A stretch of 35,408 nucleotides of DNA from Deltaproteobacteria bacterium (lineage in GTDB: Bacteria > Desulfobacterota > Binatia > DP-6), in NCBI GenBank assembly GCA_005879795.1, contig VBKJ01000153.1:1-35408 (forward strand), read 5' to 3'. The position numbers were made by a program, and so were the translations under genes. Positions 2 through 23,506 of the stretch are shown piece after piece. Numbering within the stretch: position 1 is the stretch's first letter; the number at the start of each line of letters is the position of its first letter. The notes under the pieces are model-generated. The model did not search any database. It was not told where the DNA came from and saw nothing but the letters and a program-made list of their open reading frames with translations.

Positions 2-472
2 TCACCGTGAGGCGACTCTACGCAGCGGATGGGGGCGTCGCAAGCGCAGACGCGCTCGCCGGCCGTGGTCGGGGGTGTACTCGTTGCCCCCGATCATCTG
101 CCGTCCCGCGAGCGTGGTGCGGCCGACTTCGGGGATGGCGGGCAGCACGAACGCCTCGTCCAGGCCGAGCGCGTCCATGGCGGCGTCGATCTCGGCGCCG
201 AGCGGCCCGCGCAGCCCCGGGTCGATCTTCTTGAGCACCAGCCCCGCCCAGCCCGGGCCCACGTCGGTCAGCACCGCCGCGACCCGGCGCGCCGCGTCCG
301 CCGGCGCGAGCGTGCGGCTCTGCGTGTTGCGCACGCACGTCGCGCCGCGCGGCCCGGGCCCCCGCGCCTCGAGCGCCGGCTGCACCACGACCCCGCCGCC
401 CCCCGGGAGGAGCTCGGCCCCGACATCGCAGGCCCCGGTGAGGTCGTCGGCGAGAACACGCAACGCATCCAT
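2..472 (-). CDS. DUF1537 four-carbon acid sugar kinase, N-terminal part (truncated or frameshifted)
   Basis: The first ~130 residues match the N-terminal domain of the DUF1537 (DtnK/DenK/OtnK) kinases, which phosphorylate four-carbon acid sugars such as D-threonate or erythronate: ADDLTGACD at the start, LKKIDPGLRGPLGAEI in the middle and PAIPEVGRTT near 112-121. The frame stops after 156 residues, whereas the family has roughly 400 or more with an ATP-binding C-terminal domain. The last ~20 residues are arginine-rich and lose family resemblance, as out-of-frame readings do in this DNA, so a frameshift near 20-75 is suspected; the window edge prevents a decision. It follows the PdxA-like gene on the same strand after ~160 bases. 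DUF1537 kinases and PdxA2 dehydrogenases work in sequence in acid-sugar catabolism, which supports the call. Confidence 0.72.
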   Translation of the reverse strand: MDALRVLADDLTGACDVGAELLPGGGGVVVQPALEARGPGPRGATCVRNTQSRTLAPADAARRVAAVLTDVGPGWAGLVLKKIDPGLRGPLGAEIDAAMDALGLDEAFVLPAIPEVGRTTLAGRQMIGGNEYTPDHGRRARLRLRRPHPLRRVASR

Positions 473-631
473 GTAAGTTAGACTCTCAGGCGCGGAGCAC
501 GGCGCGGGCGGGCGCCCCGCCGAGCTCCGGGAACTTGCCGAGGGCCGTCGGCGAGGACGTCGTGCGGCGCATCGACGTGCGTTCCGGGGTGGCTCCAGAG
601 GGTGAGGAGCCCTCCTCCCGAGCGCCCGCCG

Positions 632-1672
632 TCACGCCGCCCTCCCGTACGCGGCGGCGAGCCCCGGCTCGGCCGCGCCGCGGCGCGCGAGCGCGATCTC
701 GGCGGCGACGCGGATCGCCTCGAGGAGGTTCCGGTGGTCGGCCATGTTCTTGCCCGCGATGTCGAAGGCCGTCCCGTGCCCGGTCGAGGTCCGGATGAGC
801 GGCAGCCCGACGAGCAGCGTCACCACCTTGCCGAAGCCGAGCAGCTTCACGGCCATGAGCCCCTGGTCGTGGTAGAGCGCGAGGGTGAGGTCGAAGGCGC
901 CGTCGCGTGCCCTGAGAAAGACGGTGTCCGCCGGGAACGGGCCCTGGGCATCGATGCCGCGTGCGCGCGCCGCCGCGATCGCGGGTACGATCTCGTCCCG
1001 CTCCTCGCTGCCGAAGGCGCCCTCCTCGCCCGCGTGCGGGTTGAGTCCCGCGACCGCGAGCCGCGGCCGCGCGATGCCCAGGTCGCGGAGCGCCGCGTCG
1101 GCCAGCACGAGCCGGTCGAGCACGCGGTCCTTGCGCACGTAGTCGCACACGGCGCGCAGCGCCATGTGGTTCGTGAACAGCATGACGCGCATCTTCCCCA
1201 GGAGGAGGAGCATGGCCGGCCTGGTCGCGGTCAGCTCGCCCAGGATCTCCGTCTGCCCCTCGTAGGCGTAGCCGGCCGCGTGCATCGCCTCCTTGTTGAG
1301 CGGCGCCGAGACCATGGCGTCGATCTCGCGCGCGAGGGCGAGCCGCCCCGCTTCGCGCGTGTAGTGGACGGCGGCCGCGCCGAAGGCGGGGCGCGTCTCG
1401 CCCCAGCGGTGCTCGGCGACGTCGACGTTGCGGTAGTCGATCAGCTCGATCATGCCCGGGCGCCCCCCGGCCTCCGCCGGCCGCGCCAGCGTCCGGATCG
1501 GCAGGCGCACCCGCGTTGCCTCCATCGCCCGCTCGAGCACGCGCGCGTCGCCGAGGACGAGCGGGATGGCCCTGGCCGTGACCGAATGATCGGCGAGCGA
1601 CTTGACGATGATCTCGGGACCGATGCCGGCCGCGTCCCCCATGGTGATCGCGACCCGTGGCCGAAACGCCAT
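632..1672 (-). CDS. pdxA2: PdxA/PdxA2 family 4-phospho-hydroxyacid dehydrogenase
   Basis: 346 residues, typical for PdxA (about 330). Opens AITMGDAAGIGPEI, with SAPLNKEAMHAAG near 122-134. By spacing, the three His ligands of the divalent metal in E. coli PdxA are kept: TNHMAL (169), NPHAGEEG (213) and LYHDQG (268). The next motif is EGQTEIL where PdxA usually has GHTE, so the substrate-contacting His is Gln140. GTAFDIAGKNMADHRNLL near the C terminus resembles PdxA2 rather than biosynthetic PdxA. PdxA2 oxidises and decarboxylates 4-phospho-D-threonate or -erythronate with NAD+, using the product of a DUF1537 kinase, and such a kinase follows downstream. I chose the ATG just before the conserved start; it lies 5 bases after the stop of the glycosyltransferase gene. 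A role in vitamin B6 synthesis is less likely. Confidence 0.85.
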   Translation of the reverse strand: MAFRPRVAITMGDAAGIGPEIIVKSLADHSVTARAIPLVLGDARVLERAMEATRVRLPIRTLARPAEAGGRPGMIELIDYRNVDVAEHRWGETRPAFGAAAVHYTREAGRLALAREIDAMVSAPLNKEAMHAAGYAYEGQTEILGELTATRPAMLLLLGKMRVMLFTNHMALRAVCDYVRKDRVLDRLVLADAALRDLGIARPRLAVAGLNPHAGEEGAFGSEERDEIVPAIAAARARGIDAQGPFPADTVFLRARDGAFDLTLALYHDQGLMAVKLLGFGKVVTLLVGLPLIRTSTGHGTAFDIAGKNMADHRNLLEAIRVAAEIALARRGAAEPGLAAAYGRAA

Positions 1673-1677
1673 TCCGC

Positions 1678-2820
1678 TCACTCCGTCGGCGCGGCGACCC
1701 CGAACCCGTCCGGCGCGCTCGCGGCAAGCTCCGGACCGGCGGCGCGCCGCGCCGCCAGCACGTTGCGATAGATCGCCTCGATCCGGTCGAGGACCGTCTC
1801 CCACGCCCGCGCGTCCTCGACCGCGCGCCGGGCGGCGGCACCGAGCCGGGCGCGCGCCCCCGCGTCGGAGAGCAGCTCGACCACGGCGGCCGCGAACGCC
1901 GCCTCGTCCCCGTCGGGGACGACCCGGCCGGTGACGCCGTCGCGGAGGCACTTCGCGGACCCGGCCGAGGCGACGATTGCCTTGCCGGCGGCCATGTAGT
2001 TGAGGAGCTTCATCGGGAAGCCGGCGCGCTCGCTGCGCGGCGAGACCGCCACGTCGGCCGCGTCGAGCCGCGCCCGGACCTCATCGTAGGACGCGGCGCG
2101 CACGATCTCCACCCCGGGGCCGAGGGTGCGCTCGAGCGCCCCGGGCGCGGCGTGCGTCACGAGCACGAGGCGAGCCGCAGCCACCCGCGCCCGCACGCGC
2201 GCGAAGCTCGCGAGGAGGAAGCCCAGGTTCTGGTAGCCGTCGAGGTTGCCCGCGTAGCACACGAGCCCGTTCGGGTCCGTCCGCGGCCGGTGGGCGGCGG
2301 CGCCCGGCGTGGCGGCGGGGGCGATGCAGGCGAGGTCGCCCGCGGTCACGCCCCGCCGGCGCAGCATCTCGCCCAGCTCCGCGGTGACCGCGATGCAGAA
2401 GTCGGCGCGGCGCGGGACGTGCGCATCCAGGAGGAGTCCCACCCGGCGCGCGAGCCGCCGCGCGAGCCGGGCGCGGAAGTAGAGCGGCAGCTCCTCGGCG
2501 AGCGCGGTGTGGCCGTGGTACACCACCGGGCAGCTCGCCGCCCGGCCGACCACCAGGCCCGCGATCGCCGCCTCGTAGTTGTGCGCATGGATCAGGTCGA
2601 TCGCCTCGCGGCGCACGGTGCGCCAGAGGCGGGCCACGAGTACGACATCGCGGGCGAGGCGCGCCGGGCGCGGCCCGGGCCGGCCGCTCGCCACCGCGCC
2701 GTAGGTGACGAGGTGGACGGCGTGCCCGCGACCGCGGATACCATCGGCGAGCTGCCGTACCAGCACCTGAGAGCCGCGCAGATCCGGATACGGGCCGGCG
2801 AGGACGAGCGCGATGCGCAT
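1678..2820 (-). CDS. GT4-family glycosyltransferase
   Basis: 380 residues with the two-Rossmann GT-B layout. The N-terminal half opens MRIALVLAGPYPDLRGSQ, followed by IDLIHAHNYEAAIAG, the typical acceptor-domain pattern. The C-terminal half has GLVCYAGNLDGYQN, then ADVAVSPRSERAGFPMKLLN and YMAAGKAIVAS, which is the nucleotide-sugar binding region; the second Glu of the usual E-x7-E element is not in its canonical place. It should transfer a sugar from a nucleotide donor to a lipid or saccharide on the cytoplasmic side. No signal peptide or membrane segment is evident. It sits in the operon 16 bases after a phosphohydrolase gene and 5 bases before pdxA2. The acceptor cannot be told from sequence. 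Confidence 0.85.
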   Translation of the reverse strand: MRIALVLAGPYPDLRGSQVLVRQLADGIRGRGHAVHLVTYGAVASGRPGPRPARLARDVVLVARLWRTVRREAIDLIHAHNYEAAIAGLVVGRAASCPVVYHGHTALAEELPLYFRARLARRLARRVGLLLDAHVPRRADFCIAVTAELGEMLRRRGVTAGDLACIAPAATPGAAAHRPRTDPNGLVCYAGNLDGYQNLGFLLASFARVRARVAAARLVLVTHAAPGALERTLGPGVEIVRAASYDEVRARLDAADVAVSPRSERAGFPMKLLNYMAAGKAIVASAGSAKCLRDGVTGRVVPDGDEAAFAAAVVELLSDAGARARLGAAARRAVEDARAWETVLDRIEAIYRNVLAARRAAGPELAASAPDGFGVAAPTE

Positions 2821-2836
2821 CAGGGCTGGGAGTCCG

Positions 2837-4513
2837 TCACTCGGACGTCCTCCCGGGCTCCAGGTAGCCGAGCGCGGCGAGCCGCGCCTCGAGGTCGCGC
2901 GTCTCGTCGTCGTCGAAGGGCCGAAGAGCGGGCGCCGTGTCGGCGAGCGGATCGGGCGCCGAGCGGGGCTCGGCGTCCAGCGCGGCGGCGATCGGCCGCC
3001 CGTCGAGGCCGGCGGGCACCGGTTCGCCCGCGAGGGCGAGGACCGTCGGAGCGACGTCGACGATGTCCGCGGGCCCGAGCTCGCCGGCCCGACGCACGCC
3101 CGCGCCGGCCAGGATGAAGAGGCCGTCCCGGCGGTGGGCGCCGTTCATGCCGCGGCCCTTGCCGCCGCCGTGCTCGGCCGGTGCGAGGCGGCGGAGCGCC
3201 GGGCCCGGCCCCACACTGCGCAGGCACGACGGGCTGTACCCGTCCAGCCGCGCGAGCTCGAGCACGAGGTCGGGCGCACGCCCGACGAATGGCCCCGCGT
3301 AGAGCTCCTCGCGCCGCCACACGCGCTCGACGACCGGGCGGCCGGCCTCGTCGCGCCAGCCGGCGAGAGCGGCCGCGACCCGCCCGCGGGTCGCCCGGTA
3401 GGCGGCCGGGTCGACGACACCCTCGGGCTCGCGGCCGCGGAGGTTCAGCCACACGCTCGGGTGGTAGTCGAGCTCTTCGGCGTAGGCGAGCGTGCGGCTC
3501 CACTCGATGCCCGCCAGACGGTGCAGACCCTCGAGGCGACCCGCCGCCGCCGGCGCCCGGCGCACGAGCGCGCCCTGCAGGCGCCGCGGCACGGCCCGGA
3601 GCGCCGCGGCGCGCACCAGCCCGGCCAGGCGGCCCCGGCTCGCCCGGCGGAACCCGAGAAGCCCGCACTCCGCCAACCGCCGGTTCAGGTGGACGACGCG
3701 GTCGCTCGCGCCTCCGCTCCCGTGATCGGACACGATCGCGACCGCGGCGTCGGGCGGCGCCGCGGCGAGGAGCGCACCCACGGCCCGGTCGAGCGCCTCG
3801 TAGACGCGCGCGATCGCACCGGCGAACGGGCTCGGCGCGTGGCGCGGCGAGCGCGGGTCGTGGAAGCGCCAGAAGTGGTGCGCCACGGTGTCCGACTCGC
3901 CGAACACGACCATGAGCGCGTCCGGACGCTGGCGCTCGAGCAGCCACGCGGCGAGCTTCGTGCGGCGCTCGACCCCATCGAGGAGCCGCGCGAGCGCGCC
4001 CGTGTGCCAGCCTGGCCCCGTCGTGACCTCCTGGAAGTCGGCGAACGGCACCCGGCCGACGAGGCGCCGGATGTCGCGGTAGAACGCACGCGGGTGCACG
4101 AAGGAGCCGTCGATCGCGGTCGCGAGCGGGCTGTCGAAGCCGCTCACCATGACGCCGTCGACCGGCTCGGGCGGATAGGTGGCCGGCACGGTCAGCACCG
4201 CGACCCGGCGCCCGGCCGCCGACAGCCGCGTCCAGAGCGCGGGCACCCGCCGGTAGCTGCCGTTCACGAAGCGCACGCGATACGTGCCCGGCACCCGCTC
4301 CGTGAAGTCGAGGACGCCGTGGCGACCCGGGTTCACGCCGGTGACGAGCGAGGTCCAGGCCGGGAAGCTCGCCGCCGGGATGGTCGAGCGGAGCGGGCCC
4401 CAGGCGCCCGCGTCCATCAGGCGTGAGAGGACCGGGAGCCGGCCGGCGGCCGCCCACGGCCGGATCAGGTCGAGCGTCGCCCCGTCGAGGCCGATCACGA
4501 GGAGGCGCGTCAC
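2837..4513 (-). CDS. Alkaline-phosphatase-superfamily phosphohydrolase 1 (type I phosphodiesterase-like)
   Basis: 558 residues. Starts with GTG, overlapping the stop of the upstream sulfatase-like gene as GTGA; the family's first strand VIGLDGATLD begins immediately, so this start is well placed. Superfamily marks: Asp10 (first metal ligand), SFPAWTSLVTG with Ser49 at the nucleophile position, FGESDTVAHHFWRF (Asp and His ligands, about 200), IVSDHGSGG (Asp-His) and a late His near NGAHRRDG. The layout resembles predicted phosphohydrolases/phosphomutases of the COG3379 kind. The C terminus (DLEARLAALGYLEPG) resembles the ends of the neighbouring sulfatase-like protein. No signal peptide, so probably cytosolic or peripheral. 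Expected chemistry is metal-dependent hydrolysis or transfer of a phosphate ester; the substrate is unknown. One of four superfamily members in the operon. Confidence 0.85.
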   Translation of the reverse strand: MTRLLVIGLDGATLDLIRPWAAAGRLPVLSRLMDAGAWGPLRSTIPAASFPAWTSLVTGVNPGRHGVLDFTERVPGTYRVRFVNGSYRRVPALWTRLSAAGRRVAVLTVPATYPPEPVDGVMVSGFDSPLATAIDGSFVHPRAFYRDIRRLVGRVPFADFQEVTTGPGWHTGALARLLDGVERRTKLAAWLLERQRPDALMVVFGESDTVAHHFWRFHDPRSPRHAPSPFAGAIARVYEALDRAVGALLAAAPPDAAVAIVSDHGSGGASDRVVHLNRRLAECGLLGFRRASRGRLAGLVRAAALRAVPRRLQGALVRRAPAAAGRLEGLHRLAGIEWSRTLAYAEELDYHPSVWLNLRGREPEGVVDPAAYRATRGRVAAALAGWRDEAGRPVVERVWRREELYAGPFVGRAPDLVLELARLDGYSPSCLRSVGPGPALRRLAPAEHGGGKGRGMNGAHRRDGLFILAGAGVRRAGELGPADIVDVAPTVLALAGEPVPAGLDGRPIAAALDAEPRSAPDPLADTAPALRPFDDDETRDLEARLAALGYLEPGRTSE

Positions 4514-6405
4514 TTCCCGTCCTTCGTGACGTAGCCGAGGGCCTCGAGACGCTCCCTCGTCGCGGGGTCCATCTGCCCCGGCTCCGCCCCCCCTGCGTGC
4601 GCGCGCGCCTCGAGCACCGACTCGCCCAGCTCGGCGCGCATCTTCTCCGCCTCGGCCGGCGCGCTCGCGACCTCGTTCCGGTGCTCGCCGGGGTCGTGCG
4701 GGAGGTCGTAGAGCTCCTCGGGGGCGAGGCCGCGCGGGTTCCCCGCATTGGCGGTGATCAGCTTCCACTCGCGCGTGCGCACCGCCCGCAGGACGTTGCC
4801 CTCGAGATCCTCCTCGGCGAACGTGCTCTGCCGCGCCGCCGCGGCGCCCCCGTCGAGCGGGAGGGCATGCCCCTGCATCGCGGCGAGCGGCGCGAGATGC
4901 GCCGCCGCGATGATGGTCGGGGCGATGTCGAGGCTGGTTGCGAGCTCGTCCAGCACGCGGCCGGCCTCGCCGGCCGGGGGCAGCCTGTCTGCCCCGGGCG
5001 GCTTCACGATGAGCGGCACGTGGATCTGCTCGTCGTAGAGAGTCGTCCCGTGCCACCAGCCGCCGTGCTCGTGGAACTCCTCGCCGTGGTCGGAGGTGAG
5101 GACGACGAGCGTCCGGTCGTAGAGCCCGCGGCGCTTCAAGTCGTCGAACAGCACGCCCAGGTGCTCGTCCAGGTACGCCACCTCGCCCGCGTAGAGATGG
5201 TGGAGCTTCTCGGCGAGCGCGGGTGGGGGGTTCGGGTTGGCGACGCGCGCCCGGCATTCGCCGTCGAAGGGATGGGCGCAGTAGGGATCGTGCGGGTCCA
5301 TGTAGTGGGCGAAGAGGAAGAACGGCTCGACGCCCGCGCTCCGATCGAGCCAGCCGCGCACGGCCGCGGTTACCACCTCGGCCGGCTGGTAGTAATGATG
5401 CACGTCCACGGAGCGGGCGGCGAAGCGCTCGCGCACCAGACGGAGCCCGCTGTAGAGCGCGAGCTGCGCGGCCGCCTCGCTCGCGCCGAAGAAGAGGTCG
5501 GGCGCCAGGTAGCGGTACTCGTCGAAGCCCTGCTGGAAGTTGAAGGCCTCGGAGATGTTCGCGTTGTCGGCGAAGCCGACGGTGTGGTAGCCGCCGCGCC
5601 CGAGCACCTCGGCCAGCGTGTCGACGCGATCGGGCAGGCGGTCGGCCTTGTGCATGGCGCCGTGCGACGACGGGTAGAGGCCGGTCAGGATGGTCGCCAC
5701 CGAGGGCCGCGTCCACGACGCCTGCGCGAAGGTGTTGGCCCAGCGCATGCCGTCGGCGGCGAGCGCATCGATGTGCGGCGTCCTGACGGCGGTCGAGCCG
5801 TAGCAGGAGAGGTGGTCGGCGCGCAGCGTGTCGACCATGACGAGGACGACGTTCGGCGCCCCGGCCGGCGCCGCCGCCCGCGGCGGGGCGGGTGCCGGCC
5901 CCGGCGCCGGGATGGTGGATGTCCCACCCGCCCACGCCGCGACGAGGAGTGCTACCACGAGGGCGGCCGCTCCCGGGCGGGTGAGCGCCGCCCGCCGCTC
6001 GTCCGCGCCGCGGAGCGCGCGCCAGAGGAGGACCGCGGCGAGGGCCGCTAGGGCGAGCGCGCCCACCTGGACGACGAGCGGCACGAGCCCGCGCGGCACC
6101 TGCTCGAGGAGCACGTCGCGGATCACGCGGAAGCGGGCGACGGCGAAGGCGAGCGCTGTGCCCACGCCGGCAAGCGCGAGACCGAAGCCGTCGGTGCCGA
6201 CGACGGCCGCCAGGACGCCCCCGCCGAGCCCGAGCCCGGCGCCCACCGTGCCGTAGGCGGCGAGCGCCCAGCCGAGCGCGGGCAGCTCGCCCGGGCCGTG
6301 CGCGTGCCCCCACACCGCCAGCGCCTCGGCCGCACCCACCGCCGCGCCCGCTACGAGGCCACCGGCCAGACCCGCGCCGAGCGCGCGTGTCCTCGCGTTC
6401 GTCAC
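4510..6405 (-). CDS. Membrane-anchored sulfatase-like hydrolase with Thr at the nucleophile position
   Basis: 631 residues, GTG start overlapping the upstream stop (GTGA). Residues ~1-165 hold about four to six hydrophobic segments, then a Pro/Ala linker, then the sulfatase fold from ~184: NVVLVMVDTLRADH with Asp192, SWTRPSVATILTG with Thr232, SLDIAPTI, and TSDHGEEFHEHGGWWHG with the Asp-His ligands; HYMDPHDPY lies between. Family sulfatases carry Cys or Ser, converted to formylglycine, where Thr232 sits. This protein therefore probably works like Thr-nucleophile phosphodiesterases or phospho-transferases of the superfamily, not as a true sulfatase. The catalytic domain should face the periplasm. 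It ends LEALGYVTKDGK and overlaps the next hydrolase gene by 3 bases. Confidence 0.85.
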   Translation of the reverse strand: MTNARTRALGAGLAGGLVAGAAVGAAEALAVWGHAHGPGELPALGWALAAYGTVGAGLGLGGGVLAAVVGTDGFGLALAGVGTALAFAVARFRVIRDVLLEQVPRGLVPLVVQVGALALAALAAVLLWRALRGADERRAALTRPGAAALVVALLVAAWAGGTSTIPAPGPAPAPPRAAAPAGAPNVVLVMVDTLRADHLSCYGSTAVRTPHIDALAADGMRWANTFAQASWTRPSVATILTGLYPSSHGAMHKADRLPDRVDTLAEVLGRGGYHTVGFADNANISEAFNFQQGFDEYRYLAPDLFFGASEAAAQLALYSGLRLVRERFAARSVDVHHYYQPAEVVTAAVRGWLDRSAGVEPFFLFAHYMDPHDPYCAHPFDGECRARVANPNPPPALAEKLHHLYAGEVAYLDEHLGVLFDDLKRRGLYDRTLVVLTSDHGEEFHEHGGWWHGTTLYDEQIHVPLIVKPPGADRLPPAGEAGRVLDELATSLDIAPTIIAAAHLAPLAAMQGHALPLDGGAAAARQSTFAEEDLEGNVLRAVRTREWKLITANAGNPRGLAPEELYDLPHDPGEHRNEVASAPAEAEKMRAELGESVLEARAHAGGAEPGQMDPATRERLEALGYVTKDGK

Positions 6406-8408
6406 CGCGCTGCCGCCAGGAGCGCGTGCCCCTCCATCTCGGACGGCACGGGCACGCCGAAGAAGGCGAGCGCCGTCGGCGCGAGATCCACGATCGCCGG
6501 ATCCTCGGCCTCGAGGCGGCGCGAGGCCAGGATGACGCCGGGCGTGTCCGCCACGTCGGAGGCGGCATGGTCGCCGCTCCACTTCTTCCAGTTCGGCTCG
6601 AACAGGTCCCCGGGGATGCCGCCGAGCGGCGTCCGCCACGAGGTGCGGTAGCCGTCGCGGAAGGCGATCTGCAGGTCGGGCATGCGCTCCGGCGGCGCGC
6701 CCGGGAAGATCTCGGGGCCCTTGTAGACCCTGGCGACGAAGCGCTCCCCGGTCGAGGGATCGACCTCCGCCTCGAGCCCGCGCGCGATGGCGTCGAGGAG
6801 CGCCTCGTACTCCGCGCCCGGCGCGACGATCCCGTGCCCCTCGCGGCCGCGCAGGTTCACGTAGATCTGCCCCGTGCCGAGCGCGTAGGCGCGCGTCTTC
6901 GTCCACTCGACGCCGGGGAAGAAGTCCTCCTTCTCCGCGCCGGGCGCGGCGGCGGCCTGCACCAGGTAGCCGCGGTCGCGCAGCCAGGTGTTCACGTTCA
7001 GGCCCGTCCGGTAGCTGTGGAAGCCGTGGTCGGAGAGGACGAGCAGCACGGCCTCGGGGCCGAGCCGCTCGAGCACCTCGCCCACGACGCCGTCCATACG
7101 CTGGTAGACGCGCTGCACCGCATCGCCGAAGCGCGCCGCCAGCACGGCGTCGTAGCGGGGGTGGGCCGGGTCGAGGAAGCGGTAGAACATGTGCGCCACG
7201 CGATCGGTCTGGGTGAAGACCGAGACGAGGAGGTCCCAGTCCGGGCGTGCGAGCTCGCGCAGCGTCGAGGCGCGCACCTCGTCCATGGTCTGGTCGAGGT
7301 CGTCGAGGAAGGCCTGCTCGTCCACGCGCTCGGCGTTGAGCGCCGAGGTGTCCTCCGACCAGCCGACCGTCTTGTAGGGCCCGAGCGCCCCGGCGAGCTC
7401 GCCCGCGAACGCACCGGGCGCGCTGATCGCGGCGAAGGGGTGGGCCGGCGCGTAGTTGAGCGGCGACAGGTAGACCCGCAGCGGGTCGAGGGAGAGGACG
7501 TGGAAGCGGCAGAGCCCGTCGAGCGCGACCAGCGGGAGCCCGAGCGGTGCGACCACGGGGACGCGAAAGGCGAGCCACGGGCTCCAGCCGCCGCGCCCGA
7601 CGCGGGTCTCGCGCCCGGCGAAGTCGATCGTCACCGCGTCACGCTCGCGGTCGACGCGCAAGCGGACCGGGATGCTGAGCGCCGGCCGGCCGCCGCCGCG
7701 CGGATCGGCCGGCCCGGGCACGTCCGCGCGCGCCGCGTCGCCCGTCACCCGGAGCGCCACCAGCCGCCCGCCGCCCGGATCGCCCTTCCCGTCGGCGGCC
7801 AGGTCGCTCGCCAGGTAGAAGAAGGTGCTGTTCGTGCCGAGGAGGTCCGGGACGCCGAGGCCCGAGAGCATGCGCCCGCCCGGCACCGGGTCGGGCGGGA
7901 ACGCGTACGGCACGCGCAGCACGACCGCGTGCACCCCATGCTCGGCCGCCACCTCCCAGAAGGGCACCCCGCGCCGGCGCGTGTACCCCCGGGCCGGCGC
8001 GGACTGGACGACGCCGTGCCAGTACCGCGGCGGCCGTACTCCGCCCGTGCCCACGTCGGGGAGGTACGTCGCCGGGTCACGCTCGATGAAGTCGAAGATA
8101 CCGTGGCGGGCGGGGCGGGTGCCAGTCGCGAACGTGGTCCACGCCACCGGCGACTGCGGCGGGTTGGTCGAGGCGAGGGGGCGGTAGTCGCCGCGCTCGG
8201 CGAGCGCCCGCAGGCGGGGCAGCTTCCCTTCCTCCATCCAGCGCGAGAGGAGCCGCGGGTCGACGCCGTCGAAGCCGAGGATCACCAGCCGCGGCCCGCG
8301 GCGCCCGGCCTCCTGCCCGTCGCCGCAGCCGACCACGATCGCCAGCAGGGCGATCGCCACCCCGAGGGTCCGCAGCGCCCTACTCCTCGGGGAGGGTCTC
8401 CCAATCAT
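6402..8408 (-). CDS. Alkaline-phosphatase-superfamily hydrolase 2, predicted lipoprotein
   Basis: 668 residues from the ATG at 8408. The N terminus has a basic region, a hydrophobic stretch and a lipobox (AIVVGC, Cys28), so the protein is probably anchored by lipid outside the cytoplasmic membrane. Then LVILGFDGVDPRLL (Asp47), PPQSPVAWTTFATG with Ser86 at the nucleophile position, HGIFDFIERD, SVFTQTDRVAHMFYRF (Asp/His), LVLSDHGFHSY, and KKWSGDHAASD with a late His. An insertion of about 150 residues (roughly 200-350) separates the two catalytic halves. Start is uncertain: a CTG at 8375 lies 7 bases after a GAGGAG and would give LRTLGVAIALLAIVVGC, a compact lipoprotein signal. The stop overlaps the sulfatase-like gene by GTGA. 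Substrate unknown; probably a cell-surface phosphoester. Confidence 0.85.
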   Translation of the reverse strand: MIGRPSPRSRALRTLGVAIALLAIVVGCGDGQEAGRRGPRLVILGFDGVDPRLLSRWMEEGKLPRLRALAERGDYRPLASTNPPQSPVAWTTFATGTRPARHGIFDFIERDPATYLPDVGTGGVRPPRYWHGVVQSAPARGYTRRRGVPFWEVAAEHGVHAVVLRVPYAFPPDPVPGGRMLSGLGVPDLLGTNSTFFYLASDLAADGKGDPGGGRLVALRVTGDAARADVPGPADPRGGGRPALSIPVRLRVDRERDAVTIDFAGRETRVGRGGWSPWLAFRVPVVAPLGLPLVALDGLCRFHVLSLDPLRVYLSPLNYAPAHPFAAISAPGAFAGELAGALGPYKTVGWSEDTSALNAERVDEQAFLDDLDQTMDEVRASTLRELARPDWDLLVSVFTQTDRVAHMFYRFLDPAHPRYDAVLAARFGDAVQRVYQRMDGVVGEVLERLGPEAVLLVLSDHGFHSYRTGLNVNTWLRDRGYLVQAAAAPGAEKEDFFPGVEWTKTRAYALGTGQIYVNLRGREGHGIVAPGAEYEALLDAIARGLEAEVDPSTGERFVARVYKGPEIFPGAPPERMPDLQIAFRDGYRTSWRTPLGGIPGDLFEPNWKKWSGDHAASDVADTPGVILASRRLEAEDPAIVDLAPTALAFFGVPVPSEMEGHALLAAAR

Positions 8409-8478
8409 CGGAGTAGGCGGCGCCATCAGCGGGCTCGGGCGCGGGCGGCGCGGGGGCGTCCCGGCGGCGCTCAGCCAT
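8380..8478 (-). CDS. Possible small acidic protein (32 aa)
   Basis: A short frame opens with ATG overlapping the end of the CobW-like gene by 8 bases and ends with GAG GAG TAG. Its product is acidic at the C terminus (AAYSDDWETLPEE) and Pro/Ala-rich before that. It fills exactly the gap between the metallochaperone gene and the CTG start alternative of the lipoprotein hydrolase, and its last two codons form the best ribosome-binding site there. Translational coupling would fit the rest of the operon. It is short and could be chance; I know no family for it. Confidence 0.35.
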   Translation of the reverse strand: MAERRRDAPAPPAPEPADGAAYSDDWETLPEE

Positions 8479-9418
8479 GCGGGGCTCTGACTTCCTCGCC
8501 CGTCTCGCAGGCGGCGAGCGCGGCCTCGATCCGGCGCTGGTGGCGCCGGATGTCCCGGCCGATGAACACGGCCTGACTCTCCCCCACCCCGTCGTCGAGC
8601 TTCACCCAGGTGAGCTCGTGGCGGCCGCAGGTGTAGTTGAAGAGGCATTGCCAGTCGCGGCCCGCGAAGCGCACGATGCCCTTGGCGCGCAGGACGTCGG
8701 CGGGCAGGCGGCGGAGCAGGCGCTCGAACGTCTCCTGGCGGAGCGGCAGCCGGGAGCGGTAGAGGAAGCTGCCGATGCCGTCGGCGTGCAGGTGGTCGAA
8801 GCCCGCGCGGGCGCGGTCGCGGAAGGCCGCGACCCCGGTCGCGAAGAGCACGTCGCTGTCGATCGCGCCGCGCACGGTCCGCATTTGCTCGGCGCGCGGG
8901 TTCAGCTTCGCCAGCCGGCGCTCGAGCCGCGCCACGGCGGCCGCGGCGACCAGGTCGAGCTTGTTCACGACCAGGAAGTCCGCCGCCTCGATCTGTGCCC
9001 GCGCCACCCGGGTCTCGTCGAGCTGCCGCTCGACGTTGGCCGCGTCGACCACGGTGACGACCGCGTCGAGCCCGAGGCCCGCGCTCTTCACGCGGTAGGC
9101 GAGCGGCTCGGGGTCGGCGAGCCCCGTCGACTCGATGACGATGAGGTGCGGCTTCGCGGTGTCGATGATCTCCTGGATCGCCAGGTCGAAGCGATAGTCG
9201 TCGATCGAGCAGCAGATGCAGCCGCTCGTCAGCTCGACCATCTTCTCGACGTTCGCGAGGCCGGTGACGACCCTGCCGTCGATCCCGACCTCACCGATCT
9301 CGTTCATGATGACCGCGACGGGCTTCCCGCGGAGCCCGTGCTCGAGCACGTGACGCAGGAGCGTCGTCTTCCCGCTGCCGAGGAAGCCGGTCAGGATGTC
9401 GACCGCGACCGTGCGCAT
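8471..9418 (-). CDS. CobW/COG0523-family GTP-dependent metallochaperone
   Basis: 315 residues. Walker A is GFLGSGKTT (11-19); the family's metal-binding CxCC motif is GCICCS (Cys67, Cys69, Cys70); IVIESTGLADPEPL follows; the guanine-specificity motif is VVNKLD. The C-terminal CobW_C domain contains DWQCLFNYTCGRHELTW. COG0523 GTPases insert or traffic metals, often zinc or cobalt, into client proteins. Its start codon shares one base with the stop of a superfamily hydrolase (TGATG), and another hydrolase follows, so it sits inside a run of enzymes that need two metal ions each. A client relation to those enzymes is inference from position. Zinc-limitation control (a Zur site) was not seen. Confidence 0.9.
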   Translation of the reverse strand: MRTVAVDILTGFLGSGKTTLLRHVLEHGLRGKPVAVIMNEIGEVGIDGRVVTGLANVEKMVELTSGCICCSIDDYRFDLAIQEIIDTAKPHLIVIESTGLADPEPLAYRVKSAGLGLDAVVTVVDAANVERQLDETRVARAQIEAADFLVVNKLDLVAAAAVARLERRLAKLNPRAEQMRTVRGAIDSDVLFATGVAAFRDRARAGFDHLHADGIGSFLYRSRLPLRQETFERLLRRLPADVLRAKGIVRFAGRDWQCLFNYTCGRHELTWVKLDDGVGESQAVFIGRDIRRHQRRIEAALAACETGEEVRAPHG

Positions 9419-10806
9419 CAGTGGAGCGGCCTGCCCACGAGCCCGTCGGGCAGGGGCTGTCCCATCAGGCGGAGCACCGTCGGTGCGATGTCGTAGATCG
9501 ACACGTCGGGCAGCCGGCCGCGGAGAGGGGCCTCGGCGCCCGCCGTCGAGAGGATGAAGATGCCGTGCCAGTCGTGGTTGGCCTCGTCCGGCCCCGTGTC
9601 GTTCTCGAAGGTGTGGATGCCGCCCATCCCGACCGCGCCGACCGAGCGCCAGTCGAGGTCGCCGAAGTAGACGAGGAGATCGGGCGCGACGCCGTTGACG
9701 CTGCGGTAGAGGTCCTCGGGCCGGTACGCCTTGCAGCCGATGGTGCGCCCGCTCGGGTCCGAGATCGCCTCGATGCCGGCCACGAGGTCGCTGCGCACGC
9801 GCTCGTAGTCCGCGGGGTCGATCGTCCCCGCCGGCTCTCTCCCCTTTACGTTCATGAACAGGCGCCCGTAGTAGCCGCCGTCGCCCCACGCCCTGGTCTT
9901 AGTCCAGTCGATCGCCGCCTGGCCGATGGGCGTCGGCTTCGACGGCCGGTTGGCGAGCGTCAGGTAGCCCTCGCGCATCAGCCACTCGTTGAAGCAGATG
10001 CCGCCGTCCATCTTCTTGGCGCCGTGGTCGGAGACGACGAGCACGAGGGTGTCGGCCGGGCAGAGGGCGAGCAGCTCGGCCAGCTCCGCGTCCACGTGGC
10101 GGTAGTAGTCGCGGATCGCGTGCTCGAAGGGGTTCCCGGCCTCGTGCTTGGGGTGCGCCGGGTCCATGTGGCTCCAGAAGCCGTGCTGGATGCGGTCGAC
10201 GCCCATCTCGACCAGCATGAAGAAGTCCCAGGAGCGCGTGCGCAGGAGGTGCTTCCCGAGCCGGAGGTGCTTGTCGGTCTTCTCGTACACGCGCTGCAAG
10301 AGCCCCGCCTTGTCCGCGGTGCGGAAGTCCTCGACGTCGAGCACGTAACCTTCGGTCACCCGCTCGACCTCGGCCTTGAGCGCCCGCGGGTAGGTGTACT
10401 CGTTCCTCGTCGAGGGCGTGAGGAAGCAGGTCACCATCTCGCCGTTCACGGCCGACGGCGGGTAGGTCTGCGGCACGCCGAGGACGACCGTGTGCAGGCC
10501 GGCCTGCCCGAGCCAGTCCCAGATGCGCGGCGCCTTCACCTGGGCCGAGCTCGCGAAGGCGTAGCCGTCGTAGGAGCGGTCCTTGCGGTTGCGGAAGCCG
10601 TAGAAGCCGAGCTCACCCGGGTCGCGGCTCGACATCATCGAAGTCCAGGCCGGCACCGTGATGGGTGGATGCGTGCTCAGCATGCGGCCGTGTGCACCGC
10701 GCGCCATCAGGCCCGCAAGCGTCGGCAGCTGGCTCCGCCAGCGGTCGAAGACGAGCGTGGGTACGGCCGAGTCGAGACCGACGATGAGCACCTTCGAGAA
10801 CGCCAT
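9418..10806 (-). CDS. Alkaline-phosphatase-superfamily phosphohydrolase 3
   Basis: 462 residues, starting at the ATG just before KVLIVGLDSAVPTL. Metal and catalytic motifs: Asp12, PPITVPAWTSMMSS with Thr50 at the nucleophile position, MLVEMGVDRIQHGFW (Asp and His), LVVSDHGAKKMDGG, and a late His in ANHDWHGIF. DPGELGFYGFRNR replaces the usual PGxHGxxDF. No signal peptide or membrane segment. The family comprises metal-dependent phosphomutases and phosphodiesterases, so the exact reaction is open. The gene follows a large glycosyltransferase whose frame runs into it, and overlaps the metallochaperone start by one base. The nucleophile residue differs between the four hydrolases (Ser, Thr, Ser, Thr in map order), which argues for distinct substrates rather than recent duplication. 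Confidence 0.87.
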   Translation of the reverse strand: MAFSKVLIVGLDSAVPTLVFDRWRSQLPTLAGLMARGAHGRMLSTHPPITVPAWTSMMSSRDPGELGFYGFRNRKDRSYDGYAFASSAQVKAPRIWDWLGQAGLHTVVLGVPQTYPPSAVNGEMVTCFLTPSTRNEYTYPRALKAEVERVTEGYVLDVEDFRTADKAGLLQRVYEKTDKHLRLGKHLLRTRSWDFFMLVEMGVDRIQHGFWSHMDPAHPKHEAGNPFEHAIRDYYRHVDAELAELLALCPADTLVLVVSDHGAKKMDGGICFNEWLMREGYLTLANRPSKPTPIGQAAIDWTKTRAWGDGGYYGRLFMNVKGREPAGTIDPADYERVRSDLVAGIEAISDPSGRTIGCKAYRPEDLYRSVNGVAPDLLVYFGDLDWRSVGAVGMGGIHTFENDTGPDEANHDWHGIFILSTAGAEAPLRGRLPDVSIYDIAPTVLRLMGQPLPDGLVGRPLH

Positions 10807-12799
10807 CCCGCAGGCGCGCGTTTCTATCGGACGCGGCGGAGGGCCGCAATCCCGGCGTGACAGCGGTGGTGGCCTCGGACAGCACACAGGAGTCCGTCCG
10901 GGTAATCGTGGCGGCTGCGGCCAGCGCCGTCGGCCCTGTCTCGGCCCTGAGCGTGTAGAGGGCGTAGCCGCCCTCGCGCACCAGGGGCGGATCGCACTCC
11001 TCGATGAGGAAGCCACGCCACAGGCGCGCGACCGATGCCTCGAAGGGGTCGCCGGCCGCCTCGAGCCCGGCCAGCTGGATCGCGACGTGCGTCACGCCGA
11101 GGCCGTGCGCCGCCGCGGCCAGCGCCTCGGGGGTGACGAGCGTCCGGTAGTCGAGCAGGCCCTGCTCCAGGTAGCTCCCGAGCACGAAGGGGCGCTCGAT
11201 GTAGTACGGATGCGGGATCTTCTCCAGCACCAGCACGAGCCCCGCGGCCGGCACCTCGGCGTTGGCGCGCTCCCAGAACGCGAAGCGCGCGGAGTGGCGA
11301 CGGAGGAACTCCGCCGGCGCGAGCAGTCCGGCGGCGACCCGCACCTGGTCGGGCCACAGCGGCTGGAGGAGGCCGGTCGTGAGGGCCAGGTTGCCGGCGA
11401 TGGTGAGCGCGACGGCCGCCGCGAAGAGCCGGCGCGGGAGGAGCGCCCGCGCCGCCGGCACCCCGGCGACCAACACGAGGGCCAGGCCGGGCAAGACGTA
11501 GCGCGGGTGCGCCCACGCCGCCGCCGCCACGATGCCCGCGTAGCCGAGGCCGAGCGCGGCGGTGGCCAGCACCGCGAACCGCCGCCGGCGTACGAGGAGG
11601 ACCGCGGGGGCGAAGGCGAATGCGAACGGGCTCACGTCCATGCTCTGCCGCGCGCCGTTCTCGAACGAGTCCGGATGCATGGTGAGGTCCCACGGGACGC
11701 TCACCACCTCGAGCCCCGCGTAGGGCGTGCCCTCGCGCCGCTCGGCCCAGGTCGTCTGGTACTGCCGGTAGTAGTCGCGGAGGTACTCGCTCGCCGCGCT
11801 CGACCAGTGTCGCCCGCCGAACACGGAGTACCCGAAGGGATAGATCGGGTTCCCCGTCTCGGCCGCGTTGCGCACGTACCAGGGACTCGCGGCGAGAAGC
11901 GCGAGCAGGCCGAAGGCGAGCGCCGGGCGCACGCGGCGGCGCGCCGGCTCGGCACGCCGGGCGAGCACGGCGAGCAGTCCCGCGCCGAGCAACGCCGGCA
12001 CCAGGAGCCCCATCGGCTTGCTCCCGCCCGCGAGCCCCGCCATGAGCGCGGCCCGGCGGAGGTCCGCTCCGCTCCCGTCGGCCACCCAGGCGAGGAAGGC
12101 CGTGGTCGCGAGCGCCGCATAGAGGACGACGGCCAGGTCCACGCCGGCGTGGGTCATGAGCGACCAGGAGATCGGCAGGGTGAAGAAGAGCGCACCCGCG
12201 ACCGCTCCCGCGCGCGGCGCGAGATGCCGGCCGGCGAGCGTGGCGAGCGCGAGGGCGGCGGCGACACCCAGGGTGCCGTTCAGCAGCCGGGCGAGCACCT
12301 CGCCGCTGGCCGCGAAGCCGAGCGCGAAGACGAAGTTGGGGAGGAACTGCACGTGCCCCCAGAAGCTCCACGGCGTCGGCACGAGGCCGCCGGCGAGGGC
12401 ATAGAGGCGCGGGTAGACGAGCTGGTACTTCGTCTGGTCGCCGCCCACCGGGGGCGCCAGCATCGTGGGCACCTCGGCGGCGAGGACGAGCGCGGACACG
12501 AGGACGAGCGGCCAGGCGCGCCTCAGCACGCCCGGGTCGAGGGCGCGGCAGGCCCGCACGAGGTCGCGGCCGCCGGCGACCAGGGCGGCCGCGCCGAGGA
12601 GTGCGATCGGCGTCGAGCGGAGCCGGCCCGCGACGGCGAGTCCCAGGGCCGCGATGCCCGCGAGACCGAGCCCGAACGCGAGCCCGGCGAGCAGGTGCTC
12701 GGCGCGGGCGGCGGGCAACGCGCGGAGAGCGCGCAGCGCGAGGAGCCCCGCCGCAGCCGCGGCCGCGAGCGCGGGCACGAGGAGGACGAGGGAGGTCAT
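10613..12799 (-). CDS. Polytopic GT-C-type glycosyltransferase (ArnT/PMT-like); 3' end uncertain
   Basis: 728 residues as read. About ten or more hydrophobic segments run from residue 1 to ~480. An early loop has PVGGDQTKYQLVYPR with the acidic residue typical of GT-C enzymes, followed by FWGHVQFLPNFVFALGFAA. ASPWYVRNAAETGNPIYPFG and AHPRYVLPGLALVLVAG resemble ArnT/PMT-like proteins that move sugars from polyprenyl phosphate on the outer face of the membrane. A soluble C-terminal part ends plausibly near GGYALYTLRAE. Beyond that the frame stays open for another ~100 residues of low-quality sequence and overlaps the next gene by 194 bases; a frameshift would bring the stop at 10824, just before that gene. 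The start ATG overlaps the stop of a tiny upstream gene (ATGA). Confidence 0.8.
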   Translation of the reverse strand: MTSLVLLVPALAAAAAAGLLALRALRALPAARAEHLLAGLAFGLGLAGIAALGLAVAGRLRSTPIALLGAAALVAGGRDLVRACRALDPGVLRRAWPLVLVSALVLAAEVPTMLAPPVGGDQTKYQLVYPRLYALAGGLVPTPWSFWGHVQFLPNFVFALGFAASGEVLARLLNGTLGVAAALALATLAGRHLAPRAGAVAGALFFTLPISWSLMTHAGVDLAVVLYAALATTAFLAWVADGSGADLRRAALMAGLAGGSKPMGLLVPALLGAGLLAVLARRAEPARRRVRPALAFGLLALLAASPWYVRNAAETGNPIYPFGYSVFGGRHWSSAASEYLRDYYRQYQTTWAERREGTPYAGLEVVSVPWDLTMHPDSFENGARQSMDVSPFAFAFAPAVLLVRRRRFAVLATAALGLGYAGIVAAAAWAHPRYVLPGLALVLVAGVPAARALLPRRLFAAAVALTIAGNLALTTGLLQPLWPDQVRVAAGLLAPAEFLRRHSARFAFWERANAEVPAAGLVLVLEKIPHPYYIERPFVLGSYLEQGLLDYRTLVTPEALAAAAHGLGVTHVAIQLAGLEAAGDPFEASVARLWRGFLIEECDPPLVREGGYALYTLRAETGPTALAAAATITRTDSCVLSEATTAVTPGLRPSAASDRNARLRDGVLEGAHRRSRLGRTHARLRPLAEPAADACGPDGARCTRPHAEHASTHHGAGLDFDDVEPRPG

Positions 12800-12927
12800 C
12801 GAGGCCCCAGGTAGCCGAGCCAGTAGATCAGGTAGACGGCCGCCGCCCACGCCGCTAGGGCGAGGCGGGTGGCGCGCCGATCGACGGCCTGCGCGCGAGC
12901 AGCGGCGGCGGTCTCCTCAATGTGCAA
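12796..12927 (-). CDS. Small single-pass membrane protein (43 aa)
   Basis: A short frame reads from TTG at 12927 to a TGA that overlaps the glycosyltransferase start (ATGA). The N-terminal 23 residues are charged and Ala-rich; then comes one hydrophobic segment, LALAAWAAAVYLIYWLGYLG, ending in PR. This coupling and the convincing membrane helix suggest a real gene. The start is doubtful: a GAGGAG lies at codons 4-5 and not before the TTG. Family unknown; it may assist the multi-pass glycosyltransferase that follows. Confidence 0.5.
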   Translation of the reverse strand: MHIEETAAAARAQAVDRRATRLALAAWAAAVYLIYWLGYLGPR

Positions 12928-13144
12928 GGGAAACGATGCGCTTCGTCTTGGCGGCATAGCGAACGTAGCGGTATGGGGCCCAGGCGTGCGCGGCGTGGTG
13001 GCCGCAGGCGACGAATGCCCGCACGAACGCGGCCAACCCGAGCACGCGTCCGAGCAGCCGGACCGTCGCCATCCCGCCGTCCATTCCGGCGTCGATAGCT
13101 CCGCCGATGCCCGCCCTGGCGGGAATTCGTTGCCGATCCTTCAT
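12917..13144 (-). CDS. Hypothetical small protein (75 aa)
   Basis: An open frame fills the gap between the NusG paralogue and the small membrane protein on the operon strand and overlaps the latter by a few bases. The product is basic with a hydrophobic patch (RVLGLAAFVRAFVACG) and ends YVRYAAKTKRIVSLAH. The purine-rich GGGGGAG directly abuts the ATG, too close for a normal ribosome site; an internal ATG at 13072 is an alternative. No family recognised. Kept because the space is otherwise empty in a compact operon. Confidence 0.3.
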   Translation of the reverse strand: MKDRQRIPARAGIGGAIDAGMDGGMATVRLLGRVLGLAAFVRAFVACGHHAAHAWAPYRYVRYAAKTKRIVSLAH

Positions 13145-13183
13145 CTCCCCCAGCGTGTCACCGCGCCCGCTGGCGCGTGGCCA

Positions 13184-13699
13184 TCACACGCGGTCCACCA
13201 GCTCGACCGGCAGTTCGACGGTTGCGCCCTGCCGGAGAAAGTCGAGGAGAATCTGCACCCGTCCGCGCCCGGAGCAGGGCCGCTGCACGACCGCGATCAA
13301 CCCCGCGAGCGGGCCGCTCTTGATCTGCACCCGATCCCCCGCCCTGAACGGCGCGAGCGGTCGGATGACACCCCCTTCGCCCGCACTGGCGGCGATGAAC
13401 CAGATCACGCTGTCCTGGATGGGGGTGGGCGTCGCGCCGAAGGCGACGAAGCTGCGCACGCCGGGCGTCCAGACCACTCGGTAGTAGTGCTCGAGGAGCG
13501 CGATGTGTAAGAAGAGGTAGCCCGGAAAGAGGGGCGCTACCTCGTCACGCCCCCACTCGAGGATGCGGGGCAGGAAGACCGCGACCCCGCGCCGCTCGAG
13601 CTGCTGCACCGCGTAGTCTTCCTTCCGCACCTTGGTGCGGGCCACGTACCACTGACGGTCCTGACCGCGAGCAACCGAGAGCGGTGCAGGGGCAGGCAT
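13184..13699 (-). CDS. NusG paralogue (RfaH/UpxY/LoaP-like specialised antiterminator)
   Basis: 171 residues. The NGN domain is seen in QWYVARTKVRKEDYAVQQLE, GVAVFLPRILEW and LFPGYLFLHI; the C-terminal KOW domain in FRAGDRVQIKSGPLAGLIAV and GRGRVQILLDFL. This is the architecture of NusG, but housekeeping nusG lies in the secE-rplK cluster. Paralogues such as RfaH, UpxY and LoaP sit first in long polysaccharide or secondary-metabolite operons and keep polymerase from terminating early. Here it is likewise the first gene of a ~13-kb co-directional operon with two glycosyltransferases. A sigma-54 promoter ends 18 bases upstream, so the predicted mRNA leader is only about 6 bases. No recruiting (ops-like) element was identified. 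Confidence 0.88.
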   Translation of the reverse strand: MPAPAPLSVARGQDRQWYVARTKVRKEDYAVQQLERRGVAVFLPRILEWGRDEVAPLFPGYLFLHIALLEHYYRVVWTPGVRSFVAFGATPTPIQDSVIWFIAASAGEGGVIRPLAPFRAGDRVQIKSGPLAGLIAVVQRPCSGRGRVQILLDFLRQGATVELPVELVDRV

Positions 13700-13716
13700 A
13701 CGGAGCCGGCTCGGAG

Positions 13717-13732
13717 AGCAATTTCAGTGCCA
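13717..13732 (-). promoter_or_regulatory. Sigma-54 promoter of the NusG/hydrolase operon
   Basis: Read on the minus strand: TGGCAC-TGAAA-TTGCT, a complete match to the -24/-12 consensus (TGGCAC, five bases, TTGCW). It is upstream of and oriented toward the NusG paralogue. Expected transcription start is about 13706, seven bases before the ATG. Almost identical to the element at 16808-16823. Confidence 0.88.
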
Positions 13733-14056: not shown

Positions 14057-15490
<1,434 letters not shown>

Positions 15491-15504
15491 TGCCCGACCT
15501 CGGT

Positions 15505-16383
15505 TCAGGGGCACAGCGGAAGGAAGATCACCAGGCTCTTCTCCTCCGGACCCCCGTCACGCTCCAGGAGTTCTCCGCCGTGCAAACCCACGACCTTCTG
15601 GGCCACCGCCCACTCGATCCCGGCCTCCGCGGTGCGGAAGAGCGGCGAGGCCTCGTTCGGCAGGCGGAGATGAAAGCCGACTTCCAGCCCGGCACGCTCG
15701 CGGCGCGCACTGCGCTCGATGGTGACGGCGATGCTCGACGCGGATCCCACCTGCCTCGTCAGCTGGCGCACCGCCACCTCGAAGGCGCGCGAGAGGTGCC
15801 CCGGATCGATGAGCACCCCGCCGCCCTCGCTCGGCCACGCGTCGCCTTCGGACACCATGACCGACGTGCCGTTCAGCTGCGCGCGCACCTGGAAGAGCAG
15901 CCCCTCGAGGAGATCCCTCACCGCCATGCGGGTGAAGGAGAGTTGCGTGGGATGGAAGTAGTCGAGCGAGACCCTCAAGAAGTCCTCGAGGTTCTTGATC
16001 GTGCGCTCGAGCATCTGCGCCGCGGTCGAGTCCGCCGACTTCGGGGCCGGCTTCTGCTTGAGGTAGTCGGACCAGTAGTAGAGCTTGTGGAAGAAGTTCC
16101 CGAGCTCGTGCGCGATCTCGGCCAGCACCTTCTCCTGCACCAACACCGGCGTGCCGTGCTCGGCGCGGAGCAGCGGCGGCCGCGTGACGAGCGGGCCGAG
16201 CTTCACGGGGCCCTCGGGGCCGGGGAGCTTGTTGGCTGACATGGCTGCGAGCGATCCGGCGAACGCGGCGGGGGGGTCCGCGCCACCGCCCTCTGCTCGC
16301 CTGGCCGCGAACCGGTGGAGGGAGGAGCTACGCGAGCCGGTGGTGACCACCCCGCCCGACATGCCCATCAACTCCCGCGGCAT
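15505..16383 (-). CDS. Histidine-kinase-like protein with degraded ATPase domain
   Basis: Up to 292 residues; start uncertain, since the first ~47 are low-complexity and MSANKLPGPE at 16242 is an equally good start. VLAEIAHELGNFFHKLYYW matches an H-box (His92 from the first ATG), followed by a second dimerisation helix. The ATPase part is weak: VLIDPGHLSRAFEVAVRQL sits where the N-box should be but has no Asn, no DxGxG motif is present, and GIEWAVAQKVVGLHGGEL stands for the G2 box. No membrane segment or sensor domain. It may be an inactive partner, or accept or remove phosphate without using ATP. Its stop is 14 bases before the response regulator start, so the two are probably co-transcribed. 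Confidence 0.75.
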   Translation of the reverse strand: MPRELMGMSGGVVTTGSRSSSLHRFAARRAEGGGADPPAAFAGSLAAMSANKLPGPEGPVKLGPLVTRPPLLRAEHGTPVLVQEKVLAEIAHELGNFFHKLYYWSDYLKQKPAPKSADSTAAQMLERTIKNLEDFLRVSLDYFHPTQLSFTRMAVRDLLEGLLFQVRAQLNGTSVMVSEGDAWPSEGGGVLIDPGHLSRAFEVAVRQLTRQVGSASSIAVTIERSARRERAGLEVGFHLRLPNEASPLFRTAEAGIEWAVAQKVVGLHGGELLERDGGPEEKSLVIFLPLCP

Positions 16384-16807: not shown

Positions 16808-16823
16808 TGCAATTTGAGTGCCA
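16808..16823 (-). promoter_or_regulatory. Sigma-54 promoter of the coiled-coil/two-component operon
   Basis: Minus strand TGGCAC-TCAAA-TTGCA, a full -24/-12 match differing from the operon promoter at 13717-13732 in only two of 16 positions. Expected start is near 16797. A perfect dyad CACGGA-2-TCCGTG (16822-16835) overlaps the upstream edge of the -24 element and could be a binding site. Confidence 0.87.
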
Positions 16824-23478: not shown

Positions 23479-23490
23479 GCCCGGGTCTGG

Positions 23491-23506
23491 AGCAAACCCG
23501 GTGCCA
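23491..23506 (-). promoter_or_regulatory. Sigma-54 promoter of the pilin gene
   Basis: Minus strand: TGGCAC-CGGGT-TTGCT, a complete -24/-12 match. Predicted start near 23480. Third sigma-54 site in the window, with a different spacer from the other two. Confidence 0.87.

Follow-up and report, generated by a model that had tools for sequence, protein, structure and literature searches.

Among NusG paralogues, RfaH, UpxY and LoaP each serve particular operons, and LoaP genes often adjoin polysaccharide or secondary-metabolite operons (PMC12691694). Sigma-54 control has been described for PEP-CTERM genes tied to exopolysaccharide (EPS) loci (PMC1569441). The transferases OpgB and OpgE possess an N-terminal membrane domain (PMC3818809), and the client targets of COG0523 GTPases are mostly unknown (PMC9164220).

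The window, the whole stretch of 35,408 nucleotides analysed here, is the start of contig C153 of genome G000, which is 4.1 Mb in size, consists of 280 contigs and is 99.6% complete. It carries four enzymes of the alkaline phosphatase (AP) superfamily, here AP1 to AP4, together with a COG0523 GTPase and glycosyltransferases behind a sigma-54 promoter. To our knowledge, there is no described system with this combination of AP-superfamily enzymes, COG0523 and glycan locus, and no role has been assigned to AP-superfamily phosphodiesterases within EPS loci. In the open-licence literature, no text was found linking COG0523 or type I phosphodiesterases to EPS loci. A slightly better than even chance is given to the reading that the window is the compacted form of a sigma-54-controlled EPS or surface-glycan locus, combining regulated glycan synthesis with phosphodiester editing.

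Gene order and control elements

Genes were called from open frames, G+C at third positions and matches to known families; the minus strand carries, in this order, a 99-aa ORF, a histidine-kinase (HK)-like gene, a regulator, a sigma-54 site, a NusG paralogue, a GT-C glycosyltransferase, AP1, the COG0523 GTPase, AP2, AP3, AP4, a GT4 glycosyltransferase, PdxA and DUF1537. The preliminary description had proposed a one-strand run with short gaps and GTGA/ATGA overlaps, and all elements that it named are present on that strand. The overlaps are real on inspection of the sequence, with GTGA at the AP2/AP3 and AP3/AP4 junctions and TGATG at AP1/COG0523. The gap between NusG and GT-C is not a short one, its 384 bp containing a 53-aa ORF. 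The extent of the operon had to be redrawn, as the run continues past GT4 into PdxA and a prematurely ending DUF1537, and the upstream regulator and weak HK-like gene are part of the system. Scans for terminators and sigma-70 promoters gave nothing above chance.

The sigma-54 promoter TGGCACTGAAATTGCT (13717..13732, minus strand), proposed earlier, precedes the NusG paralogue and matches the consensus TGGCAC-N5-TTGCT exactly, and a second exact -24/-12 site, TGGCACTCAAATTGCA (16808..16823, minus), lies upstream of the conserved 99-aa ORF (16481..16780, minus). Exactly three perfect TGGCAC-N5-TTGCW sites occur in the window. All three lie on the minus strand, none starts more than about 45 bp from the start of an ORF, and no exact matches are expected by chance in the shuffled window. 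The third, TGGCACCGGGTTTGCT (23491-23506, minus), stands directly upstream of a type IV prepilin-like ORF starting at 23479 (FTLVELLVVVAIIG). Among relatives, sigma-54 sites lie upstream of the 99-aa ORF and of NusG or Wza in four loci (L121, L122, L123 and L126) and upstream of the 99-aa ORF in two more (L124 and L125), and sites with one mismatch precede an AAA-ATPase gene in L030, L035 and L037. The retention of these sites before the same genes supports the earlier view that the system is inducible.

The features of a sigma-54-dependent operon, a -24 GG/-12 GC promoter and a gene for an enhancer-binding protein, were both found. The latter is an NtrC-type response regulator with REC-AAA and HTH domains (14057..15514, minus; PF00072 and PF00158), which is 83-92% identical in the six relatives searched and scores 360 bits against the PEP-CTERM PrsR model TIGR02915, where the cut-off is 502.6. 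Beside it lies the degenerate HK-like protein (15505..16383, minus), for which tblastn finds homologues of 34-56% identity next to the relatives' regulator genes, and which has no family match in Pfam or NCBIfam; its gene is paired with the regulator and its ATPase part appears degenerate. The 99-aa protein has no Pfam match and is 65-83% identical beside HK and regulator in relatives. L124 and L125 hold two diverged copies of it. The NusG/RfaH-like elongation-factor paralogue (13184..13699, minus) bears out the earlier assignment (PF02357, 7e-16) and scores below the cut-offs of the curated models for RfaH (82.7 against 144.5 bits), UpxY (55.6 against 100) and LoaP (51.9 against 125), and is therefore regarded as a separate lineage. 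By analogy, this paralogue and the regulator would work like RfaH, UpxY or LoaP and like PrsR, respectively, but they are not filed as members of those families.

The 53-aa ORF (12797..12956, minus), read from the sequence, encodes one hydrophobic helix and overlaps the GT-C start via ATGA; a counterpart with 76% identity over 21 aa lies directly upstream of GT-C in L104. Both glycosyltransferases named in the preliminary description were recovered: the GT-C-type membrane glycosyltransferase (10613..12799, minus) by a PMT_2 match below the cut-off (8.5e-5) and by orthologues of 44-67% identity at the same position in relatives' loci, and GT4 (1678..2820, minus) by PF13692 and PF13439. The final 193 bp of the GT-C frame extend out of frame into AP1. 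The PdxA-family dehydrogenase (632..1672, minus; PF04166, 5e-96) occupies the same place in relatives, and it is followed by the N-terminal part of a DUF1537 acid-sugar kinase (2..472, minus; PF07005), which stops early at the window edge. The DUF1537 ORF measures 156 aa, against open frames of 335-486 aa in relatives, and its shortness may reflect a frameshift or contig-edge error.

Hydrolases and the COG0523 GTPase

The four AP-superfamily enzymes do carry different nucleophiles, as had been claimed, namely T50, S92, T232 and S49. AP1 (9418..10806, minus; PF01663, 1e-44), AP2 (6402..8426, minus; PF01663) and AP4 (2837..4513, minus; PF01663, 2.6e-43) are NPP-type phosphodiesterases by their complete series of D, S/T, D, H, D, H and H, the fold having been modelled for AP4 only. 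The residues are D12, T50, D204, H208, D260, H261 and H411 in AP1; D53, S92, D408, H412, D466, H467 and H620 in AP2; and D10, S49, D208, H212, D263, H264 and H460 in AP4. Their metal ligands are invariant in the aligned orthologues (n = 12 for AP2), except in one cut-off sequence. An alternative nucleophile for AP4, T54, was dropped, as alignment with phosphonoacetate hydrolase and conservation put it at position 49. The AP4 nucleophile is Ser in the window's genome only and Thr in 28 of 29 aligned AP4s. The AP4 model (pLDDT 87.4) matches NPP with Z about 28 and an rmsd of 3.3 over about 350 residues. For AP1, a single-sequence search of solved structures gave no match and a profile gave weak NPP matches only.

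The model of AP3 (4510..6405, minus; PF00884, 6.5e-49; pLDDT 85.5) begins with five long helices, interpreted as membrane-spanning, and continues in a sulfatase-fold domain that matches S1 sulfatases and phosphonate monoester hydrolases with Z of 38-44. Its motif is TRPSV as against the C/S-x-P-S-R of sulfatases, the Arg of CxPSR being Val in the window, and Thr232 occupies the formylglycine position in 25 of 25 AP3 orthologues. A classical S1 sulfatase dependent on formylglycine is thus ruled out, since the motif is absent and Thr is found in all of these orthologues. As regards a possible kinship with OpgB/EptA/LtaS-type transferases, N-terminal membrane helices and a Thr nucleophile were seen in AP3, its scores are far below the cut-offs of the curated EptA and LtaS models, and no EptA, LtaS or OpgB chain is among the matches listed in the structure comparison. 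The differing cellular locations suggested earlier are consistent with the predicted features of the proteins: neither AP1 nor AP4 has a signal peptide, AP2 and several of its orthologues have a lipobox-like N-terminus, and AP3 has a putative five-helix membrane anchor.

The GTPase between AP1 and AP2 (8471..9418, minus) belongs to COG0523 by its CobW nucleotide-binding domain (cobW, 4e-47), its CobW_C domain and its CxCC motif, in which C67, C69 and C70 are invariant in 20 orthologues. A profile of its orthogroup separates members cleanly (at least 369 bits, as against at most 239 for others), and among 395 genomes of the phylum, matches above 390 bits occur in this class only. An AP-superfamily gene stands on the same contig in 24 of 24 loci of the orthogroup, within 11.4 kb and at a median of 2.6 kb, several of these loci having been fetched because both genes stood on one contig, whereas other COG0523 genes of the class have such a neighbour in 0 of 20 loci, some with short flanks. 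The Fisher p values, 6e-13 over loci and 2e-9 over 17 versus 15 genera, are too optimistic because of shared ancestry. A COG0523 GTPase among the hydrolase genes, as first described, is thus confirmed and tied to AP-superfamily loci.

The further proposal is that of a metallochaperone: the orthogroup would be dedicated to GTP-driven delivery of metal to NPP-type phosphodiesterases, and these would edit surface-polysaccharide intermediates bearing phosphodiesters. It is a tentative proposal, which we rate as rather unlikely. The GTPase may instead serve another client or have a general zinc-sparing role, its proximity to AP genes coming merely from residence in glycan loci, an explanation that we regard as a serious possibility falling short of an even chance. 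In its favour, a second type of glycan locus places COG0523 5-12 kb from the AP gene, beside a cupin and a GspE/PilB-like ATPase, and AP3-AP4 is found in many genomes, and AP3-AP4-GT4 in several of the class's families, with no member of this orthogroup; COG0523 is therefore not obligatory. Against it, wherever an f1 or f69 locus has AP1, the GTPase gene directly adjoins it, in f68, where gene order is different, the GTPase gene stands right before AP4, and the sole predicted metalloenzymes common to all loci of the orthogroup are AP enzymes. The second locus type (L064-L075) reads LptD, dTDP-glucose dehydratase-like, cupin, COG0523, GspE/PilB-like ATPase, GT2, ABC transporter, GT, NPP-type AP, DUF6077 and GT4. 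Concrete client predictions are rare for this GTPase family, and the COG0523 link offers one; if the metallochaperone proposal is true, it would give a new class of COG0523 client and an enzymatic step new to glycan synthesis of the Wzx/Wzy type.

Loci of relatives and readings of the window

Relatives of AP4 occur in 47 of the 118 genomes of the class (E at most 1e-40). Forty AP4 loci were fetched, and 38 with a good AP4 were used for neighbour counts. AP3 lies directly upstream of AP4 on the same strand in 35 of these 38 loci and 23 of 25 genera, which bears out the conserved hydrolase neighbourhood that the preliminary description had offered as a check, and GT4 lies directly downstream of AP4 equally often (35/38 loci, 23/25 genera), two of the three loci without it being cut by contig ends. 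The AP3-AP4-GT4 core is as constant in the class as standard export genes. The loci show four architectures, most of which carry genes for glycan assembly or export: A, with regulator, AAA ATPase, NusG, AP3, AP4, GT4, Wza, Wzz and BY-kinase; B, with flippase, GT4, AP2, AP3, AP4, GT4 and GT2; C, the window's type, with GT-C, flippase, AP1, COG0523, nucleotide-sugar dehydrogenase, AP2 (lacking in some loci), AP3, AP4, GT4, PdxA, cyclase or aldolase-cyclase and DUF1537; and D, with regulator, epimerase, COG0523, AP4 and GT4. Pairs of the AP3-AP4 or AP-AP kind, in several cases accompanied by GT4, are not confined to the class: Desulfuromonas, Desulfobacteraceae, Hydrogenedentes and further MAGs have them, and one such pair stands beside export genes.

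In five genomes (G165, G163, G156, G173 and G186), the regulator and/or NusG share one contig with the C module in a locus of 35-45 kb, the G163 regulator lying at the end of another contig. Between regulator/NusG and the C module stand Wza, Wzz, BY-kinase, Wzy, a deacetylase, an asparagine-synthase-like protein, a priming transferase and a radical-SAM protein, as well as glycosyltransferases and one more protein of the sulfatase fold. A flippase is part of these loci, and complete ones hold four to five AP-superfamily genes each. In G092, the ancestral locus is in two parts (L122 and L027) about 250 kb apart on one contig. The embedding of the same genes in Wza/Wzz/Wzy/priming-transferase/flippase loci supports the earlier assignment to a surface glycan, and this part of the reading is well supported by gene neighbourhoods; the glycan may be phosphorylated, as first proposed. 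The system does not stand by itself: in relatives the genes, whose linkage is conserved, belong to larger Wzx/Wzy-type loci. Judged by conserved context, the sigma-54 regulator, promoters, NusG paralogue and glycosyltransferase/AP module form one conserved system.

About 24 kb of the relatives' locus, including assembly and export genes, is absent from the window, this figure and the locus length having been read from contig coordinates. Flippase, polymerase, chain-length protein, outer-membrane export protein and priming transferase are all absent from the window, so that its locus is not of the Wzx/Wzy-dependent EPS type by these genes, which are present in relatives' loci. The gap may reflect a local assembly fault. 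The window lacks the middle part, its genome has no close homologue of Wzz or flippase, and the sister genome G188 (80% complete, fragmented) likewise has none and lacks the asparagine-synthase/dehydrogenase (AsnB-UGD) stretch as well; on these sequence comparisons, the window is therefore read as a lineage-level compaction, and the supposed operon as a compacted remnant. As flippase and Wzz are missing, synthesis of the ancestral polymer by this locus may have ceased in the organism.

The same losses fit a decaying remnant, in which large deletions took assembly and export and the remaining genes drift or do unconnected housekeeping, a reading that we hold to be unlikely though far from negligible. 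The overrun of the GT-C frame into AP1, the early end of DUF1537 and the Ser of the window's AP4 where aligned AP4s have Thr would agree with drift, but ten frames are still open with high third-position G+C, the metal ligands are intact, the sigma-54 site is still an exact consensus match, and the G188 comparison rests on an incomplete and fragmented genome. More improbable is a phosphorus- or acid-sugar-scavenging operon whose enzymes take phosphate or sulfate esters off external compounds, with PdxA/DUF1537 degrading a four-carbon acid. The catabolism of acid sugars includes PdxA2-type dehydrogenases and DUF1537 kinases (PMC9997740), relatives have a class II aldolase-cyclase protein between PdxA and DUF1537, and an outward orientation is predicted for AP2 and AP3; yet AP1 and AP4 are without signal peptides, the genes constantly found alongside are those of glycosyltransferases, joined in relatives by EPS export genes, and across most of the class PdxA/DUF1537 do not accompany AP3-AP4.

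Under the favoured reading of a compacted, sigma-54-controlled glycan locus, the regulator would fire sigma-54 polymerase at the promoter before nusG, and the NusG paralogue, in the manner of RfaH, UpxY and LoaP, would sustain elongation over the whole length of the glycan operon. Sugars would be added by GT-C and GT4; AP3, with a membrane anchor, Thr nucleophile and predicted extracytoplasmic active site, and the lipoprotein AP2 would transfer or remove phosphodiester groups of the glycan at the periplasmic face; and AP1 and AP4, with their cytoplasmic NPP fold, would act on precursors that are nucleotide-activated or lipid-linked, cleaving or transferring their phosphodiesters. In clades having it, the COG0523 GTPase would supply metal to the NPP-type enzymes. 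We infer the substrates of the enzymes and the metal supply by the chaperone. With the ancestral assembly and export genes gone, the window's lineage probably either still makes a glycan or glycolipid of smaller size or has a decaying pathway. Counting against this reading are the fold of AP3, nearest to S1 sulfatases and phosphonate monoester hydrolases and not to known transferases, the catabolic element suggested by PdxA and DUF1537 at the tail, the lack of a close Wzz or flippase homologue in the window's genome, and the dispensability of the COG0523 orthogroup. Once shown, the role of the AP enzymes would add a step to the textbook EPS pathway, and the sigma-54 regulator and NusG paralogue are a conserved pair predicted to control the glycan locus of this uncultured class.

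Comparison with known systems

Wzx/Wzy EPS loci, including the sigma-54-regulated PEP-CTERM (PrsK/PrsR) type, share with the relatives' loci an NtrC-type regulator, AAA ATPase, Wza, Wzz, BY-kinase, Wzy, priming transferase and -24/-12 sites. The loci described here differ from them in the four to five AP-superfamily enzymes of each complete locus and in the COG0523 GTPase, the regulator falls below the cut-off for PrsR, and the window's own locus is without the assembly and export genes. The window's paralogue resembles RfaH, UpxY and LoaP in having a NusG N-terminal domain and heading a glycan operon, but it is below the cut-off of every curated model.

The fold, the full metal-ligand set and the nucleophile of NPP (PF01663) are common to AP1, AP2 and AP4, whereas AP1 and AP4 differ from NPPs in being cytoplasmic, and identity to solved NPPs is low. 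AP3 has the fold of S1 sulfatases and phosphonate monoester hydrolases, but carries Thr at the formylglycine residue and lacks CxPSR; it shares an N-terminal membrane domain with OpgB/OpgE-type transferases, yet its catalytic domain is closer to sulfatases than to curated transferase families. The window's GTPase has the CobW and CobW_C domains, Walker A and CxCC of YjiA, ZigA, CobW and Nha3, and differs from them as a separate orthogroup confined to AP-bearing glycan loci.
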